Positions 4,256 to 31,050 of a DNA stretch of 64,000 nt are shown one piece after another. How positions within the stretch are numbered: position 1 is the stretch's first letter; each line of letters begins with the position of its first letter. Origin of the DNA: Phycisphaerae bacterium (GTDB lineage Bacteria > Planctomycetota > Phycisphaerae > Sedimentisphaerales > Anaerobacaceae); assembly GCA_030601845.1 (NCBI GenBank), contig JAUWAY010000001.1, forward strand, positions 89,274-153,273, in the 5' to 3' direction. A program made the translations under genes and the position numbers. The notes under the pieces were generated by a model that was not told the DNA's origin, did not search any database, and saw only the letters and a list, made by a program, of their open reading frames with translations.

Positions 4256-4280
4256 GCGAGTCGTACCCAGGCACGCCCCT

Positions 4281-4373
4281 ATCGCCTGTCGCTTATCGCC
4301 TGTCGCCTATCGTTTATCGCCTGTCGCCTATAGCAATTAGCGATTAGCGATTAGCGATTAGCGATTGGCGATC
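4281..4373 (+). repeat. Heptamer array with strand switch
   Basis: Seven phased 7-mers of the type ATCGCCT/GTCGCCT (4281-4329) are followed, after a 2-nt slip, by six 7-mers of the type AGCGATT (4332-4373). The second word is close to the reverse complement of the first, so the array reverses strand midway and can fold into an imperfect hairpin. It sits between the PEBP gene and the promoter of the next gene and could act as a weak terminator, but no T-run follows. Confidence 0.85.
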
Positions 4374-4429
4374 AGGCACAAGCCTGTCGGGATTTTTGCA
4401 ACGAAAACCGTCAGTTTGAATATAAATTA

Positions 4430-10379: not shown

Positions 10380-12341
10380 ATGGCTATTGCTCAAATGACA
10401 AAAGTGATGATTGTCAGCCATCGCACGCAGGCCTCGGAGCTTCTGGAGGCGCTGCAGCATGAGGGTATTTGCCAGATACTGAACGCAGCCGAGGCGATGG
10501 TCAGCAGGGACTGGCCTGAACTTGGCACCGGAGCGGAACGGCCAAGGGACATCGAAGAGCTGTTGGGCCGACTGGCCAGAAGCATCACATTTCTTAAAAG
10601 CTATGCCGAACCCGCCAAGGGTCTTGCGAGTGTTCTTTCGCCACGTACCGTCGTTGACGAGCAGTCATATAACCAGGTTGTTTCAGATGAGGGAATTTTA
10701 GGAATTATTGACCAGAGCGAGCAGACCGAGGCGGCGATAGAAAGGGCAAAAGGCGAGATTGAGAATCTATGCAACACTTTAGAGGTGCTTCGGCCGTGGA
10801 AAGCTCTCCAGACGCCTGTGGAAGAGATTGGCCGGCTTCGGACAACAACGTGCTGGGCAGGATTCTTGCCAGAGCGACAGTTCGGGCAAGTAGAAGAGAA
10901 GATAGGCGAACTCGGCGGGGCAATCGAAGCAGCAGGGACAGATGGAAACAGGTATGCCTGCCTTATTGCCTGTCTAAATGTTGGTATCAATGAGGTACAA
11001 AAGCTGCTGCGCTCAGCGGAGTTTGAGCCGGTCAACTTTGAGCGAGTGACAGGGACAATAGCAGAATCAATACGGGACACAAGCGAAAAATTAAACGAGA
11101 CAAGAGAACGCTTGCACCGGCAGTATGAAAAAGCAGCGTCCCTGAGCAATAATATACTCAAGCTTCAGATTCTTCACGACCATTATGAAAATTTATTAAA
11201 CAGAGAGCAAACCAAGGGCGCTGCGCCGGCGACCGAACAAACGGTCATTCTGGAAGGTTGGGTGAAAGAAAAAGATTACCGTCGCCTGGAGAAGACAGTG
11301 TCGGGGTTTGAGGCGTCGAGTTTGAGCAAGATTGAACGGCTTCAAGACGAAGAGGTGCCGGTTGAGATAGAGAATAAAAACTACATTCGGCCATTTGAGG
11401 TAATAACCCGTCTTTACGGTATGCCGCAGCACTTTGAGGTTGACCCGACAGTTTTTTTAGCGCCATTCTTTGCACTCTTCTTTGCGATGTGTCTGACCGA
11501 TGCCGGCTATGGACTTGTTATCATTGCCTTGATGGTCTTCTTCATAAAGAAAATACAGGGTGACAAGAAGCTGATGTGGATGCTGGGAATCTGCGCCGCA
11601 GCGACCATCTTTGCGGGCGCCCTGACCGGTGGCTGGTTCGGTAACGCAGTGCAGCAGTTTGTACCTGCATTAAAACCAGCCAGAGAAAAGCTAATGTTGT
11701 TTGACCCGCTTAAGGAGCCGATGATTTTCTTTAAACTGGCGCTGGCACTTGGATATCTCCAGATTATGGCAGGCCTGGCAATCGCATTTTTCCACAGCGT
11801 AAAACAGAAGGACTACGTCGCAGCGGTCTGCGACAAGCTTACCTGGCTGGTTATGATAAATGCGATTGTTGTATTCCTGGCGAGCAAGTTCGGCGTGGTC
11901 TCTGCTGGAGCTGCCAGGGTGGCCGGCTACATAGCTCTTGTGCCTGCCGTGGCGATTTTGTTCTTTAGCCAGCGCCAAGGTGGTTGGGGCGGTCGGCTTG
12001 GCATGGGAGCATACAACCTTTTTAGCACGATATTCTACCTGGGGGACGTGCTAAGTTATTTAAGACTGATGGCACTTGGTATGGTGACAGCCGGGCTGGC
12101 AATGGCAATAAATGTGATAGTTGAAATCCTCGGCAAGATACCTGTCGTAGGGGTGGTCATCGCTGTGGTCCTGTTCGCAGCTTTTCACATGGGCAACATG
12201 GCCATAAATGCCTTGGGAGCTTTCGTTCATACATTGAGACTGCAATATGTCGAGTTTTTCCCGAAGTTCTTAGTCGGCGGCGGCAAATTATTTGAGCCCT
12301 TGAGCAAAAAGTATACACGCATTTATATCAAGCGTGAATAG
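10380..12341 (+). CDS. ntpI: V-type ATPase subunit I (membrane stator, a-subunit)
   Basis: Membrane subunit that forms the ion half-channels against the K ring. The N-terminal half (residues 1-350) is a soluble coiled-coil arm; the C-terminal half has about seven membrane segments beginning with FLAPFFALFFAMCLTDAGYG, the family hallmark, and later the segment SYLRLMALGMVTAGLAMAIN with the essential Arg. A TTG at 10362 would extend the frame, but AAGGA lies 5 nt before the ATG at 10380, so 653 residues are assigned. A heptamer array begins over its stop codon. Confidence 0.92.
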   Translation: MAIAQMTKVMIVSHRTQASELLEALQHEGICQILNAAEAMVSRDWPELGTGAERPRDIEELLGRLARSITFLKSYAEPAKGLASVLSPRTVVDEQSYNQVVSDEGILGIIDQSEQTEAAIERAKGEIENLCNTLEVLRPWKALQTPVEEIGRLRTTTCWAGFLPERQFGQVEEKIGELGGAIEAAGTDGNRYACLIACLNVGINEVQKLLRSAEFEPVNFERVTGTIAESIRDTSEKLNETRERLHRQYEKAASLSNNILKLQILHDHYENLLNREQTKGAAPATEQTVILEGWVKEKDYRRLEKTVSGFEASSLSKIERLQDEEVPVEIENKNYIRPFEVITRLYGMPQHFEVDPTVFLAPFFALFFAMCLTDAGYGLVIIALMVFFIKKIQGDKKLMWMLGICAAATIFAGALTGGWFGNAVQQFVPALKPAREKLMLFDPLKEPMIFFKLALALGYLQIMAGLAIAFFHSVKQKDYVAAVCDKLTWLVMINAIVVFLASKFGVVSAGAARVAGYIALVPAVAILFFSQRQGGWGGRLGMGAYNLFSTIFYLGDVLSYLRLMALGMVTAGLAMAINVIVEILGKIPVVGVVIAVVLFAAFHMGNMAINALGAFVHTLRLQYVEFFPKFLVGGGKLFEPLSKKYTRIYIKRE

Positions 12342-12375
12342 TGAAGCGAAATACGAAATACTAAATACGAAATGG
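12334..12375 (+). repeat. Heptamer array, ntpI-ntpK junction
   Basis: Six phased 7-mers (GTGAATA, GTGAAGC, GAAATAC, GAAATAC, TAAATAC, GAAATGG). The array starts before the ntpI stop codon and ends in the Shine-Dalgarno of ntpK (GGAGG). The word order GTGAAGC then AAATAC recurs at 18497 and 20636. Confidence 0.88.
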
Positions 12376-12385
12376 AGGTCTGACA

Positions 12386-12895
12386 ATGAATTACGGAATG
12401 ATTTTGGCTTTGTGTAGTGCAGGATTGGCGGCCTTGTTGCCTGGTATTGGCTCGGCAATCGGGATCCGTATTGCCGGCAGAAGTGCTACGGGCGTGTTGA
12501 GCGAAAAACCGGAAAGATACGGGCAAATGTTTATTATGGTGGTGCTGCCTGGAACACAGGGTTTTTACGGTTTTTTGGCGGCCTTTCTTGTGATGCTCAA
12601 TCTTAACTTCTTCGGTGAGAGCAGTGTACCAGAGGGTTTTCCTGTGCCGGAAGTGAGCGTCCAACTTGGGTTGCAGGTATTGGCTGCTTGTTTGCCTATT
12701 GCTTTTGCCGGTCTGATAAGTGCAATCTTGCAAGGCAAGGTTTGTGCAGGCGGTATAATGATGGCTGCCAAACAACCTGAGATGGCGTTTAAGGCGGGCG
12801 TTGTCTACGCAGTTATGGTTGAAGTTTACGCGGTTCTGGGCCTGCTGGTAACAATGTTTATGCTGCTATTCGGCATCAATTGGCCAACGATTTAA
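12386..12895 (+). CDS. ntpK: V-type ATPase subunit K (proteolipid ring), Na+-type
   Basis: Rotor-ring subunit with four helices (two fused hairpins), 169 residues, like Enterococcus NtpK. The essential carboxylate is Glu146 in VVYAVMVEVYAVLG (helix 4). The first hairpin has lost the carboxylate and instead reads LPGTQGFYGF (Thr57, Gln58), and Gln116 lies in ILQGK of helix 3. Thr, Gln, Gln and Glu at these places correspond to the Na+ ligands of Enterococcus hirae NtpK, so the ring is predicted to bind Na+. GGAGG is 8 nt upstream of the ATG. Confidence 0.93.
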   Translation: MNYGMILALCSAGLAALLPGIGSAIGIRIAGRSATGVLSEKPERYGQMFIMVVLPGTQGFYGFLAAFLVMLNLNFFGESSVPEGFPVPEVSVQLGLQVLAACLPIAFAGLISAILQGKVCAGGIMMAAKQPEMAFKAGVVYAVMVEVYAVLGLLVTMFMLLFGINWPTI

Positions 12896-12909
12896 AGCGT
12901 GCCCCGGGA

Positions 12910-12956
12910 CACGTGACCCGAACGAGACACGAGTCACGAGAAACGAGCGACGAATT
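12910..12956 (+). repeat. Heptamer array, ntpK-ntpE junction
   Basis: Phased 7-mers of the type GAGACAC, GAGTCAC, GAGAAAC, GAGCGAC fill the gap to the ntpE start codon, so no Shine-Dalgarno is visible for ntpE. The words CACGAG and GTGACCC are shared with the arrays at 13544 and 16201. Confidence 0.88.
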
Positions 12957-13547
12957 ATGGAAGCTGAACAGGTAGTAGAAAAGATATTGGCCGATGCAAA
13001 AGCCGAGGCAGAGAAGATAAGAAAGCAGGCCGAAGAAAGAGAAGCTGCTGAGCAGGACAAATTAGCTGAGCAACTGGACGAGTACAAAAAGCAAACAGAG
13101 ATTCTTGCTGAAAAAGCAGGGAAAGACAAGAAACTCCATCTTTTGGCAGCGGCGAGAATGGATATTGCCAAAGAGTACCTGGCAGAGAAAAGAAAGCTCC
13201 TCGATGAGGTCTTTGCGCAGGCGCGAGAGCAACTGCAAAATTTACCGGATGACGACTATTGCCAGCTAATGACCAAACTGATGCTCGAAGCGGTAGAGAC
13301 CGGCGACGAAGAGGTTATCGTTGATAAGAACGAAAATCGAATCGACCAACAGCTCATCGATGAGGTTAATGAGCAGTTGGGTTCGGGTAATAAAGGTAAT
13401 TTACGGCTGTCTGAAGAAAAGCAGGATATCGGAGGAGGTTTTATTTTAAGACGCGGCAAAATAAAAAACAATGTCTCAATTAAAGTATTGCTGACTCTGG
13501 CACGCAAAGAGCTGGAAATCGAATTGGCAAAAGAGCTATTCTCGTGA
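12957..13547 (+). CDS. ntpE: V-type ATPase subunit E (peripheral stalk)
   Basis: Peripheral stalk subunit that pairs with G/H and contacts the top of the catalytic head. The 196-residue product has an N-terminal charged coiled coil (AEKIRKQAEEREAAEQDKLA) and a mixed C-terminal domain with GGGFILRRGKIKNNVS-type sequence around residue 160, typical of AtpE/NtpE. No Shine-Dalgarno is visible because a heptamer array abuts the ATG; translation may be coupled to ntpK. The stop codon TGA lies in the first units of the next array. Confidence 0.88.
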   Translation: MEAEQVVEKILADAKAEAEKIRKQAEEREAAEQDKLAEQLDEYKKQTEILAEKAGKDKKLHLLAAARMDIAKEYLAEKRKLLDEVFAQAREQLQNLPDDDYCQLMTKLMLEAVETGDEEVIVDKNENRIDQQLIDEVNEQLGSGNKGNLRLSEEKQDIGGGFILRRGKIKNNVSIKVLLTLARKELEIELAKELFS

Positions 13548-13613
13548 CGCGTGACCCCTGACTCGTGGAACGAGATACAAACTACGAACTATGGACTACG
13601 AACTACGAACTAC
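13544..13613 (+). repeat. Heptamer array spanning ntpE stop and ntpC start
   Basis: Ten 7-mers in unbroken phase (for example GTGACGC, GTGACCC, CTGACTC at the left and GAACTAC, GAACTAT, GGACTAC, GAACTAC at the right). It contains the ntpE stop codon at 13545 and the ntpC start codon at 13591, and encodes the first residues of NtpC (MDYELRTT). Confidence 0.9.
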
Positions 13614-14628
13614 AGATGTGGATTTTTACACGTATCCGCCTGTCGGCGACGATGACTGGCGATATACCTTCCAGACGGCCCAGGTGCGGGTCCTTGAGAT
13701 GCAGATGCTAAGCCCAGCGGCCCTTCTGGATATGGCTAATGCGAAAAATTTCGAGCAGGCAGCCGGTCTGTTAGCGGCGACCGAGTACGCCATACCACAA
13801 ACAAGCAAAAGCTTCGCAGAGATGGAGGATATTTTGCGGCTTCGAAGAGCAGCGGTGCGAGAGCTGTTTGCGGATTTTATCCTCGATAAACCGATTGTAG
13901 AGTTGTTTAAAACACGGGCCGATTTTGCGAATCTGCGATTAGCTCTCAGGCGAACACTGACGGAGAAACCATTAGGGACCGATTACAGTGATGACGGCAA
14001 TGTGCCGCCCGAAATATTTGAAGAAGTCTTTGAAGCAGAGAATTACAACCTGCTCCCCTGTTATATGGCCCAGGCGGTAGAACGGGCAGTTTTGGCCTAC
14101 TACCAGAACAAGGATGTCCGGCAGATTGATTTCGCAATCGACGACGTGCAGGCCGAATATAATCTCAAAATTGCACGCCGGCTAAACAGCCTTTTTCTGC
14201 TCGGCCTTTTTCGAATACAGATTGATTTGACAAACATTCGCACAATGCTTCGGCTCAAATACACCGAATCAGAGCAGCGCAATGTCTTCTTAAAAGGCGG
14301 GTATATTCAACTGGAGCGATTAAAACGCGGACTGGATATCGGCTATGAGGCGCTTGGGCATTTATTTTTTGTAACGCCCTACTACCAGATTGTTGAATCA
14401 GGAGCTAACTATTTGGCGTCGGATAAATCCTTTTTAAGGGCTGAGCAGCAGTGCGCCAAATTCTTTACCGGGTATCTTAGGACAACGATTCAGATTACCA
14501 CCGGCCCTCAGCCAATTATCGCATATTTATTAATGAAGGAAAACGAAATCCGCACCGTGAGATTGATACTGACAGCCAAGAAAAATTACCTGGATACAAA
14601 ACTTATTCTGGACCGGCTGGGCGGATAA
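13591..14628 (+). CDS. ntpC: V-type ATPase subunit C (collar/central funnel)
   Basis: Funnel-shaped subunit joining the central rotor stalk to the K ring. The 345-residue helical protein matches AtpC/NtpC in length and position in the operon, with an N-terminal DDDWRYTFQTAQVRVLEMQM and a C-terminal ENEIRTVRLILTAKKN. The first eight residues (MDYELRTT) are encoded by a heptamer array, so the array either created or moved the start codon; no Shine-Dalgarno is visible. A later start is possible, but none with better signals exists nearby. Confidence 0.88.
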   Translation: MDYELRTTDVDFYTYPPVGDDDWRYTFQTAQVRVLEMQMLSPAALLDMANAKNFEQAAGLLAATEYAIPQTSKSFAEMEDILRLRRAAVRELFADFILDKPIVELFKTRADFANLRLALRRTLTEKPLGTDYSDDGNVPPEIFEEVFEAENYNLLPCYMAQAVERAVLAYYQNKDVRQIDFAIDDVQAEYNLKIARRLNSLFLLGLFRIQIDLTNIRTMLRLKYTESEQRNVFLKGGYIQLERLKRGLDIGYEALGHLFFVTPYYQIVESGANYLASDKSFLRAEQQCAKFFTGYLRTTIQITTGPQPIIAYLLMKENEIRTVRLILTAKKNYLDTKLILDRLGG

Positions 14629-22638: not shown

Positions 22639-22735
22639 ACAAACCCAATACAAACCCAATCAAACCCAATACAAAGCCAATTAAAGCCAATATAATGCCA
22701 AAACAAACCCAAAACAAACCCAATCAAACCCAATC
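22639..22735 (+). repeat. Array of 10-11-bp units
   Basis: About nine units of the type ACAAACCCAAT with 10- or 11-bp spacing, close to one helical turn. Variants are AAAGCCAAT and AATGCCAA in the middle. It ends at CTTGTCCGCCATAGCCTTGG, a small palindrome-like motif. Distinct in period from the 7-mers. Confidence 0.8.
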
Positions 22736-28924: not shown

Positions 28925-29040
28925 CGCGGAGAACGCAGAGAGCGCAGAGAAAATATCATAATAAAACGAAAAGAATATGGGTTCCTGCGAAGTCAGGAAT
29001 GACCATATTAAAAAACTCTGTGTACTCTGCGATTAATCTT
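28922..29040. repeat. Two inverted 9-mer arrays in the acpS-mnmG gap
   Basis: Left array 28922-28957 has units CACCGCGGA, GAACGCAGA, GAGCGCAGA; right array 29014-29040 has AACTCTGTG, TACTCTGCG. The right words are the reverse complement type of the left, so the two arrays face each other across about 56 bp that hold a GTTCCTGCGAAGTCAGGAA hairpin-like motif. The left array starts at the mnmG start codon and the right one overlaps the acpS stop. Confidence 0.7.
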
Positions 29041-29437
29041 TTTTTGTTTTTCCTTTTTGTGCCAGCGCAACTGCCGATGCGATGGCGAAATTGGCTGTGT
29101 GTGTAATACTTATGCTTATGTGTTTAATCCCAAGCTTATCGGCTATTTTTTTAACCTCTCCGCTGAGGGTAACCTGCGGCTGACCGGACGGATTATTTAT
29201 TACCTCAATATCGGTCCAGGCGATTTTGCCCCGCCAGCCGGTCCCCATCAGTTTAAGAACGGCTTCCTTTGCTGCAAAACGACCAGCTAACGTCTCTGTC
29301 GAATTCTTATGCGCCTCGGCATAGGCCTGTTCAGCAGCGGTAAAAACCCTGTTGCGGAAGCGGTCACCGTGCCGTTTTATCATCTCTTCTATTCGCGGAA
29401 AATCTACAAGGTCTATACCGTGTGCTACAATATCCAT
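29033..29437 (-). CDS. acpS: Holo-[acyl-carrier-protein] synthase
   Basis: Transfers 4'-phosphopantetheine from CoA to acyl carrier protein. The metal-binding Asp is in VAHGIDLVDFPRIEEM, and the second acidic site is in AGRFAAKEAVLKLMGTGW near residue 55. Length 134, a normal AcpS size. The C-terminal SVALAQKGKTKKD is lysine-rich and overlaps a 9-mer array. It lies in the minus-strand run between the S23 gene and mnmG. Confidence 0.93.
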   Translation of the reverse strand: MDIVAHGIDLVDFPRIEEMIKRHGDRFRNRVFTAAEQAYAEAHKNSTETLAGRFAAKEAVLKLMGTGWRGKIAWTDIEVINNPSGQPQVTLSGEVKKIADKLGIKHISISITHTANFAIASAVALAQKGKTKKD

Positions 29438-29443
29438 CTTGTT

Positions 29444-29506
29444 AGACTCCAGACCACAGACTCCAGACCACAGACTCCAAACTCCAGACCCAAGACTCAG
29501 ACATAG
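29444..29506 (+). repeat. Heptamer array, left flank of the S23 gene
   Basis: Nine phased 7-mers of AGACTCC, AGACCAC and AGACCCA type. It begins 7 bp from the acpS start and ends 4 bp before the S23 stop codon. The 14-mer AGACCCAAGACTCA at 29486-29499 is present in inverse orientation in the right-hand array. Confidence 0.92.
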
Positions 29507-29509
29507 GGT

Positions 29510-29878
29510 TTATACTTTGGTTTCTCTTTTCACTGAGTTTATAAGTCCTTGTAGTGTTTTAGCGGTTTCCTTCCTTAGATCCTCTAACTTCTTATAGTCA
29601 TCATCCTGTAGATACTTAAGACGATTTGAGAGATGCAAAAGATACTCTACCTCTGCTATCGAGCCTCTCGCTACATATAGAAAATGAAGATATTCTCTTT
29701 TGTGTTCTCTGCTTGCACCCTCAGCTATATTTGTGGGTACTGAGACTGCGGCTCTTCTTAATTGAGATGTAATTCCATACAATTCTTCCTTGGGGAAAGA
29801 CTTGGTTTTAGAATACACCAACACAGTTAAATCATCGGCGTGCTGCCACGCTTTTACATTCTTAAAGTCTCTTGCTAT
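29510..29878 (-). CDS. S23-type four-helix-bundle protein in an inverted-array unit, ATA start
   Basis: Member of the four-helix-bundle family (S23, the protein of 23S rRNA intervening sequences; related to the Avd accessory of diversity-generating retroelements), thought to bind nucleic acid. Key blocks are LYGITSQLRRAAVSVPTNIA, EGASREHKREYLHFLYVARG and SIAEVEYLLHLS. A GTG at 29824 would start late and lose the conserved DFKNVKAWQHADDL. The full frame begins at an ATA at 29878 with AAGGAG 6 nt upstream, giving 122 residues, the family length. ATA is rarely a start, so the ATG may have mutated. It is not in an rRNA gene but tightly flanked by inverted heptamer arrays. Confidence 0.85.
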   Translation of the reverse strand: MARDFKNVKAWQHADDLTVLVYSKTKSFPKEELYGITSQLRRAAVSVPTNIAEGASREHKREYLHFLYVARGSIAEVEYLLHLSNRLKYLQDDDYKKLEDLRKETAKTLQGLINSVKRETKV

Positions 29879-29890
29879 TTGTTTCTCCTT

Positions 29891-29925
29891 TTAGTCTTTA
29901 GTCTTGAGTCTTGGGTCTTGTGTCT
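29891..29925 (+). repeat. Heptamer array, right flank of the S23 gene
   Basis: Five phased 7-mers (TTAGTCT, TTAGTCT, TGAGTCT, TGGGTCT, TGTGTCT), directly next to the S23 Shine-Dalgarno and 3 bp from the parvulin stop. TGAGTCTTGGGTCT at 29905-29918 is the exact reverse complement of the 14-mer in the left array. Confidence 0.92.
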
Positions 29926-29928
29926 TTA

Positions 29929-31050
29929 TCAGTTGCTCATTCGGTAAATCTCTTTCAGGCAGAAATCTATAAATTCACTGCTTTGTCCAAGGCGCGCTTG
30001 CTGCCTAAGTTTGGCCCCAAGCTCATCAAAAGCCTGCTTTTGGCGGTCGAAAATAATCTGCGCCTCTATTTTTTTTTGCACCTTCTCAAACGGCTCATAG
30101 CCCTTCGAGTGTTTCTCTTCCAGCTTCATTATGAAAATATGCTCCTTGTCCACACTTTCAATCGGCTCTGCAATCTGCCCCGGCTCTATTTTTTCAGCTT
30201 CGAGTGCAAGAACATCATAGGGCTTTTCCAGGTTCTCCGGCCGCACCGGGTCGTTATATCTGGCAAACGATACCCCAGGATATTGCTCTGCCAACGTGCG
30301 GAAATCTTCGTCTGTCCGGATTCGTTTCGTCAATTCATTTGCCAGCTCCCTGGCTTTTTCGAGTTGATTCTGATTCGGGTCCGCCAATTCAACCTTCGCA
30401 ACTTCAATATCAATCAGCTGAAATTTTATCGTCGCCGGCCTGAAGTAAAATTCATCCTTGACCTTGTTGTAGTAGTCCAGCAACTGGCTGTAAGTGACCG
30501 GCCTGTCCTTCGGCAATTGCGATGCTATATAAGATTCGATGAGAATCAATTTTTTCCGCTTTTCCTTAAAACTCTTCCGATCCATTCCCTCTTCTTTAAG
30601 TTTCTCGTCAACCTTAGCCACATCACCCCCGAATTCGCTGACAATAATTTTTCTCAGTTCCGCCTCTGCCGCCTTTTCCAGGGCTTTGTCAATATTCTGT
30701 CCCGCCTGCCTTTTAGCCAGCTGATAAAGTAAAATATTCGATATTCTGGTCGTGATAATTCGTTCAAGCTCAGGCCTTGCCTGTTCTTTGAAGCTTTCAA
30801 AATCATTGCTGCTTTGGGCAATCGGCCCAAGACGCTCTGTTAGAGGCACAACCATCCCATTGTGTTCTACCGGTGTTTCAATTATTTCATCGCTGGTTAT
30901 GGTCTCACCGGCCACTGCCAGAACAAAACCGTCTGACGCTTCCGCAAGGGCAATACGGGCCGGCTCTTCTTCGGTAAGCCCCGGCTCATTACCACCACAG
31001 CCCGCTATCAGCAAAAACGCTAACACCGTGTAAAAAACACACTTATGCAT
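29929..31050 (-). CDS. SurA/PpiC-like peptidyl-prolyl isomerase lipoprotein
   Basis: Periplasmic folding helper for exported proteins. The N-terminus has a lipobox (LAFLLIAGCGG), so it is membrane-anchored. Residues 60-170 are a SurA-like chaperone domain (ARPELERIITTRISNILLYQ), residues about 190-330 a parvulin domain containing AEQYPGVSFARYNDPVRPEN and EHIFIMKLEEKHSKGYEPFE. Length 373 residues. The gene is upstream of the S23 unit on the same strand and probably drives the run down to acpS. Isomerase activity is inferred from the family. Confidence 0.8.
   Translation of the reverse strand: MHKCVFYTVLAFLLIAGCGGNEPGLTEEEPARIALAEASDGFVLAVAGETITSDEIIETPVEHNGMVVPLTERLGPIAQSSNDFESFKEQARPELERIITTRISNILLYQLAKRQAGQNIDKALEKAAEAELRKIIVSEFGGDVAKVDEKLKEEGMDRKSFKEKRKKLILIESYIASQLPKDRPVTYSQLLDYYNKVKDEFYFRPATIKFQLIDIEVAKVELADPNQNQLEKARELANELTKRIRTDEDFRTLAEQYPGVSFARYNDPVRPENLEKPYDVLALEAEKIEPGQIAEPIESVDKEHIFIMKLEEKHSKGYEPFEKVQKKIEAQIIFDRQKQAFDELGAKLRQQARLGQSSEFIDFCLKEIYRMSN

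Follow-up and report, generated by a model that had tools for sequence, protein, structure and literature searches.

An S23 gene between inverted heptamer arrays in a Phycisphaerae operon gap: a probable mobile unit and one case of a general rule

In the window, i.e., the whole stretch of 64,000 nucleotides of Phycisphaerae DNA that was analyzed here, an S23 gene lies between two inverted heptamer arrays in an operon gap, and this arrangement exemplifies a general rule. The sequence comparisons are best explained if the S23 gene and its two inverted arrays constitute one mobile unit, a relative of rRNA intervening sequences, that would have moved whole into operon gaps; we give this reading a probability of roughly 0.7, the safer part of it being that gene and arrays move as one unit. 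A preliminary description of the locus had proposed a mobile unit with heptamer ends, and such a unit is, as far as sequences can tell, both well supported and more general than that description could see.

The S23 unit of the window and its background

The features of the unit are listed in Table 1. Along the minus strand, the parvulin-like gene and its stop codon are followed by a heptamer array, the AAGGAG motif, the S23 gene and its stop codon (29510-29512, minus strand), an inverted heptamer array, and acpS. As had been described, the unit fills the gap between its two neighbors, extending from the stop codon of one to the start codon of the other. The exact 14-mer reported for the flanking arrays is present as AGACCCAAGACTCA at window positions 29486-29499, and its reverse complement lies at 29905-29918. 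Tandem Repeats Finder detects periods of 14 and 21 at 29444-29502 and a period of 7 at 29893-29926, and a lag-7 scan places the two arrays at 29444-29501 and 29882-29930. The arrangement described, with arrays in inverse orientation on the two sides of S23, is confirmed. The inverted flank score of the locus is 15.5, and scores of at least 15 occur in 0.5% of mispaired flanks.

Table 1. Features of the S23 unit and its neighbors (window positions)
Feature	Positions	Strand	Remark
Whole S23 unit	29438..29928	-	491 bp, takes up the whole parvulin-like/acpS gap, stop codon to start codon
Upstream heptamer array, AAGACTC family (sense strand)	29891..29928	-	begins immediately past the parvulin-like stop codon; the related unit L092 (see text) has an array of this family too
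Shine-Dalgarno-like AAGGAG	29885..29890	-	from sequence
S23 gene (23S_rRNA_IVP, TIGR02436)	29510..29878	-	122 codons from ATA in start position, then TAA
Downstream heptamer array	29444..29502	-	inverted relative to the upstream array; has a 14-mer in common with it
acpS, downstream neighbor	29033..29437	-	PF01648; same direction as S23
Parvulin-like gene, upstream neighbor	29929..31050	-	PF13145; same direction as S23

The encoded protein scores 126 bits against PF05635 (cut-off 33.8) and 123.6 bits against TIGR02436 (cut-off 24), and it matches PDB 2gsc, a single entry of five chains, with an E value of 6e-23. Judged by these matches, it is a homolog of a pentameric four-helix bundle. In the accessible part of one account, PF05635 is described as resembling Avd of diversity-generating retroelements (PMC10053308). 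The window protein belongs to the same fold family but matches the Avd model weakly (25.5 bits), under the cut-off of 80, and, unlike such retroelements, it has no reverse transcriptase match in its own genome assembly (75% complete). By its profile and structure matches, the gene is a clear member of the S23 family. The view that an S23 gene outside rRNA is something unusual had to be given up, since such genes are present in 27 of the 31 genomes of the order (own genome included), at 142 places and in up to 14 copies per genome.

The window S23 frame has no ATG, GTG, or TTG at the expected start, where ATA stands 6 nt past the AAGGAG motif. A related unit (L092, genome G004) has ATG at this place, and its S23 gene diverges or changes frame in the final third. 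The ATA could reflect a mutation, use of an unusual start codon, or a mistake in the assembly.

Arrays of heptamers occur frequently in this genome. The window contains 22 non-simple 7-bp arrays, versus 0-3 at lags 5, 6, and 8-11; two of the 22 lie at the S23 gene, and most have no S23 beside them. Thus, a lone array is not special, whereas an inverted pair around S23 is. In a background sample of 40 random stretches from relatives and the own genome (778.5 kb), the chance of a lag-7 array at a looser threshold was approx. 2.9% per 250-bp flank, and the counts at that threshold were 91 for lag 7, 93 for lag 9, and 85 for lag 12, the frequency of the latter two being attributed to codons. Because arrays exist apart from S23, controls are needed for any claim of association.

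Several further repeats of the window deserve mention. At 12334-13618, three consecutive gaps among genes that we take to be V-type ATPase-like carry heptamer arrays just ahead of the next start codon, with a different word in each gap and no S23 match. A long, nearly loopless heptamer palindrome (CCTATCG, then TAGCGAT) lies at 4276-4379, and an array of another period, in which the 11-bp unit ACAAACCCAAT is repeated nine times, lies at 22639-22735 and is among the longest of the window. The mnmG/gidA-acpS gap holds an inverted short-period pair of the 9-bp type (28925-29031) that consists of a CGCAGAGAA-type array at 28925-28951, where Tandem Repeats Finder detects period 9, and of CTCTGTGTACTCTGCG at 29016-29031 (CTCTGCG). 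The pair encloses approx. 64 bp with no listed gene, including the small palindrome TTCCTGCGAAGTCAGGAA, and, as judged by eye, it resembles the flanks of the GxxExxY genes described below, as in an empty unit of that type.

Association of short-period arrays with S23 and GxxExxY genes

From the 142 S23 places, 136 were taken; those left out are three at contig ends, two second pieces of one gene, and a partial match, G014:C71. The 131 loci with at least 100 bp on both sides form the analyzed set. The same threshold was applied to these loci and to 576 control genes from random stretches. A 7-bp array was found upstream of 92 of the 131 S23 genes (controls, 36/576), downstream of 75 (controls, 40/576), on both sides of 57 (controls, 7/576), and on at least one side of 110 (controls, 69/576). 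Inverted flank similarity was detected in 74 S23 loci and 4 control genes, and its combination with arrays on both sides in 50 S23 loci and in none of the controls; among mispaired flanks, 1.0% exceeded the inverted threshold, and in an acpS control, 0 of 28 did. Most S23 genes thus do have arrays beside them, and the outcome that the preliminary description named as marking the unit as coincidental, most S23 genes being without inverted arrays, for the most part did not occur. The arrays lie close to the gene, at a median of 9 bp from the start and 0 bp from the stop.

The period is specific: lag 7 occurs in 167 of the 262 S23 flanks, lag 8 in 24, and other lags in at most 15, multiples of 7 excepted. 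Lag 8 also occurs in 27 of 154 flanks of S23 loci from named genomes (a set of best matches, see below), and these flanks perhaps mark a sub-lineage with octamer arms. No 7-bp array was found on either side of 21 of the 131 loci, some of which have inverted repeats of another period. Long direct repeats (score at least 20) flank six loci, and flank similarity that is direct rather than inverted (at least 14) was detected in 11 of the 131 loci of the order and in 10 of the 77 named loci. By eye, a heptamer hairpin of approx. 120-170 bp is present in the same direction on either side of the S23 genes of L101 and L024 (G021), and at the Faecalibacter locus L241, very long arrays of the GGGACTA type run in the same direction, not inverted, on both sides. 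In the own genome, six of the seven S23 genes are enclosed, as judged by eye, by inverted arrays of heptamer type, the words of which vary; for the seventh (L005), a contig end truncates one flank.

The named genomes were sampled through the best 80 matches listed for one conserved peptide, which is not a random sample; 77 of these loci have both flanks. Among these best matches, lag 7 occurs in 82 of 154 flanks and inverted similarity in 41 of 77 loci (mispaired, 1.0%). According to their records, the loci belong to Planctomycetes, Verrucomicrobia, Acidobacteria, Bacteroidota, Chloroflexi, Nitrospirae, Proteobacteria, Cyanobacteria, Clostridia, Omnitrophota, Methanophagales, and others, and they include Nodularia, Bosea, Chitiniphilus, Thiohalocapsa, and a Methanophagales archaeon.

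A second small gene, GxxExxY (PF13366, TIGR04256), is unrelated to S23 and is found in the same kinds of gap. It is also multi-copy, with 64 places in 22 of the 31 genomes. Flanks were examined at 30 of the 64 places: a single one of these 60 flanks shows lag 7, compared with 16 for lag 9 and 18 for lag 10, and 18 of the 30 loci have inverted flank similarity. The leu operon allows both genes to be compared in the same gaps. In particular, 28 of 30 leuD loci were scored, the two left out being low-scoring, aconitase-like matches. The leuC-leuD gap (24 genomes) contains S23 in 5, GxxExxY in 3, and neither in 16, and the leuD-leuB gap (11 cases) contains S23 in 3, GxxExxY in 2, and neither gene in 6. 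Every one of the 13 inserts reads in the direction of the operon. Heptamers are present in 8/8 S23-filled leu gaps, whereas the GxxExxY-filled gaps have 9- or 10-mers in 4/5 and a 7-mer in 0/5; gaps holding neither gene have an array in 5 of 22. Since the period differs with the inserted gene, both in these gaps and in the flanks at large, it goes with the protein. The possibility that S23 genes are merely located near generic arrays is ruled out by the control genes and by the other period of GxxExxY in the same genomes.

Both genes are mostly oriented along with their neighbors. Among 121 S23 loci, both neighbors are in sense in 85 and both against in 2; for control small frames obtained by the same method (159), the numbers are 54 and 31, and for all mechanically called genes (566), 268 and 67, although these control frames may include false genes, which would inflate their both-against counts. 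For GxxExxY (30 loci), the numbers are 22 and 1, and for the S23 genes of named genomes (69, best matches), 41 and 5. Examples, with genes named as we read their translations, are nuoC-S23-nuoD in Bosea and Pseudaminobacter, dnaK-S23-dnaJ in Chitiniphilus, leuA-like-S23-leuB in Maribacter, trpF-S23-trpB in the window's own genome, and gatC-S23-gatA in G026. The sense bias may reflect an RNA step or selection against antisense inserts.

Array words, movement, and competing explanations

The words of the arrays were compared with the S23 proteins in 6356 non-orthologous pairs among 114 loci. Median word similarity in the same sense was 0.15 for proteins less than 30% identical, 0.43 at 70-80% identity (n = 37), and 0.49 at 80% or more (n = 12), whereas similarity in the opposite sense remained flat (0.13-0.15) across identity classes. 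The Mantel correlation between word and protein was 0.32, and none of 999 permutations was as high; in 3 of the 12 pairs that are at least 80% identical, the words are dissimilar (0.07-0.17). As word similarity climbs with S23 identity, the arrays travel or change with the gene. Fixed terminal repeats at every copy, as in insertion sequences, were rejected on the ground that words differ between loci and follow the S23 lineage. The heptamer ends envisaged in the preliminary description are thus not a single fixed repeat. Arm covariation in orthologous loci is barely beyond descent (14.6 vs. 13.8, p = 0.0005, in pairs that are not independent). Five copies per array, which would match the pentamer, found no support: the median is 6.1 (interquartile range 5.1-7.0, with a detection floor of 4).

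Orphan arrays, i.e., those without an S23 gene, resemble the whole repertoire of S23 words (0.514 for 82 arrays, vs. 0.420 for column-permuted arrays). They are no more similar to S23 words from the genome in which they lie than to those from other genomes (0.288 in both cases, p = 0.86, n = 74), so that a simple model with a resident, active master copy found no support. S23 copy number and array density are weakly correlated (Spearman 0.39, p = 0.034, 29 genomes).

Empty sites, copies of one lineage at different places, a flipped copy, and a truncated copy were found, the closest genomes compared sharing only the genus. The acpS comparison covered 28 relatives: the parvulin-like gene is present at 24 of these loci and missing from four, and one locus at a contig end (L053) was left out. 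S23 is absent from the parvulin-acpS junction in all 24 other genomes with this gene order, where the gaps measure 0-97 bp. The same two arrays, which would have spoken against the proposed unit, are not present at these S23-free junctions; the one heptamer array among the 24, in G004, is a palindrome of 80 bp built on a different word, with no S23. The window locus (L003) and L092 of G004 carry one S23 lineage between different neighbors, and their alignment begins at base 1 of the unit and reaches into the array downstream of the gene. Similarly, L125 and L126 encode proteins that are 94% identical at two places in one genome with differing neighbors, and they align solely from -23 to +51 of the gene. 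That homology ends at or in the arrays is what a unit spreading with heptamer ends predicts, and this earlier proposal is supported, the transposition itself being deduced from comparison. Relative to L095 and L103, the unit of L030 is flipped between the same neighbors, with the flanks on the opposite strand and S23 on the same strand. Finally, the gatC-gatA gap of G030 contains an S23 remnant that is truncated at its 5' end and lies between a long array and an inverted one, and that of its congener G026 contains a full S23 gene and a second remnant; by sequence comparison, the G030 gap is a case of decay of an S23 unit to arrays. In L095 (G019), a frame downstream of the S23 unit (1174-1692) resembles a REP-type Y1 transposase.

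These results bear on three other explanations. Heptamer palindromes might occur in operon gaps independently, with S23 merely inserting into their center, so that the arms belong to the target rather than to the unit. Such an arrangement would recall rRNA intervening sequences, which likewise sit at the tips of rRNA helices, and would account for the many arrays without S23 in the window and in the background sample, for the palindrome in the acpS gap of G004, for the arrays in leu gaps without cargo, and for the whole heptamer hairpins that are directly repeated around the S23 genes of L101 and L024. However, array words go with S23 protein lineages at places that are not orthologous, the pairs L125/L126 and L003/L092 have arms as well as gene in common, just 1 of 24 empty acpS sites has a heptamer array, and GxxExxY goes with another period, including in the same leu gaps; targets that preceded the gene are thus improbable, though more credible than the two explanations that follow. 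According to the first of these, S23 is a passive passenger of fragile, recombinogenic inverted arrays, and the recombination machinery of the host copies the DNA that lies between like arrays, with no involvement of the S23 protein. The flip of L030 is expected from recombination between inverted arms, array number does change (as in the long array of G030), and the lack of a known transposase-like motif in S23 and of a reverse transcriptase (RVT_1) or Y1 match in the 75% complete assembly of the own genome would agree with a passive role; passengers should vary, yet each of the two genes examined, S23 and GxxExxY, keeps its own period, and word and protein lineage are linked, making this explanation very unlikely. 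Least probable of all is that S23 serves the host as an ordinary gene of the operon, immobile and sporadic through loss, with the arrays serving as regulatory or insulating RNA hairpins: the strong sense orientation, the closeness of the arrays to start and stop, the pairing of the arms in the predicted fold, and 60 pairs of loci (at least 45% protein identity, several genera) with similar S23 genes and similar distal flanks speak in its favor, but one lineage occupies unrelated gaps in one genome (L125/L126), L030 is flipped, genomes carry as many copies as reported above, S23 is absent at a given gap in most relatives, and the leuC-leuD gap holds differing S23 lineages (L127 vs. L144, L153, and L154, 34-37% identical). 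Regarding the last point, 25 locus pairs with similar surroundings have different S23 genes, and as several of these are neighboring leu gaps and not one gap, only the checked leuC-leuD cases were used.

Relation to known elements and a possible mechanism

REP/REPIN elements with their RAYT (Y1) transposases are many small genomic palindromes, some of them around one protein gene, and in them, as in the units described here, repeat ends track the protein lineage. In contrast, S23 is a four-helix bundle and not a Y1 transposase, its ends are variable tandem arrays, and the orphan arrays do not preferentially match the S23 copies of their own genome.

The intervening sequences of 23S rRNA genes are likely relatives. 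The accessible text of one account reports that such sequences with an S23 open reading frame occur in Coxiella and Leptospira and calls them selfish, describes their function and origin as unclear, and states that RNase III cuts out the Coxiella sequence (PMC4990558). The likenesses go beyond the protein family: these elements are short (428-444 nt in Coxiella vs. 491 bp here) and have terminal inverted repeats that pair as RNA (PMC4990558), as is predicted here for the arms with the 14-mer pair (z = -1.93 for the fold). They differ in that the window unit lies between a parvulin-like gene and acpS, outside an rRNA gene and its helices, and in that the S23 units of this order have 7-bp array arms with lineage-specific words and high copy numbers.

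Heptameric repeats are known from cyanobacteria, where they are called STRR. The accessible parts of other accounts describe heptameric TAACTGA repeats of Beggiatoaceae (PMC4679880), GGGAATC repeats of Xanthomonas and Nostoc (PMC4692102), and heptanucleotide elements of Geobacter (PMC2700814); in 2015, heptameric repeats were said to have no detailed literature (PMC4692102). The arrays around S23 share with them, as far as these excerpts go, a tandem 7-bp unit in intergenic gaps, often beside start codons and sometimes inverted. The difference is that no gene family is tied to the array interior in the accessible parts of those accounts; the term S23 was not found in the paper on the Beggiatoaceae repeats (PMC4679880). 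A search of open-access titles and abstracts, subscription papers being outside its scope, found none that ties S23 or GxxExxY genes to short-period arrays.

In the mechanism proposed for the mobile unit, gene and arrays would enter operon gaps whole and in sense orientation. The S23 protein is predicted to bind its own arms, either as RNA or as a single-stranded DNA hairpin, because the period depends on the enclosed protein and because word and protein change together; the odds that it recognizes the arms are about even. Once the operon is transcribed, pairing of the arms would leave the S23 frame looped out, an arrangement that would make the insert tolerable to the host. The predicted RNA fold of the window unit (-125.7 kcal/mol) has this form, with the arms paired and the gene in the loop, and is modestly better than that of shuffled sequences, 4 of 100 of which fold as well. 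RNase III might cleave the unit, as it does in rRNA intervening sequences. Binding of the arms by S23 would make the unit mobile with the aid of another enzyme, and gene-free array palindromes would partly be the remains of decayed units. An RNA step in this movement is rather doubtful. We know of no catalytic or transposase-like motif in S23. A reverse transcriptase (PF00078) or a Y1 transposase (PF01797) acting in trans found no support as the helper, as neither has a match in the own genome assembly, which is 75% complete; the window protein has no Y1 match either.

A wider proposal, which we advance tentatively and hold to be somewhat less than an even bet, is that bacteria and archaea harbor a distinct class of very small mobile elements, the ends of which are short-period arrays. 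The S23 pentamer (period 7) and the PDDEXK-like GxxExxY protein (9-10) would each read an array of fixed period, the word drifting with the protein; the elements would enter gaps of transcribed operons in sense, form hairpins with the gene in the loop, and decay to solo arrays. Such a class would explain why heptamer repeats are in excess in bacterial genomes and how rRNA intervening sequences arose.

The rule described here joins rRNA intervening sequences to heptameric repeats, spans many phyla, and names a partner protein, so that both become testable. Moreover, an array-flanked S23 gene provides an annotation signature for small insertions within conserved operons.
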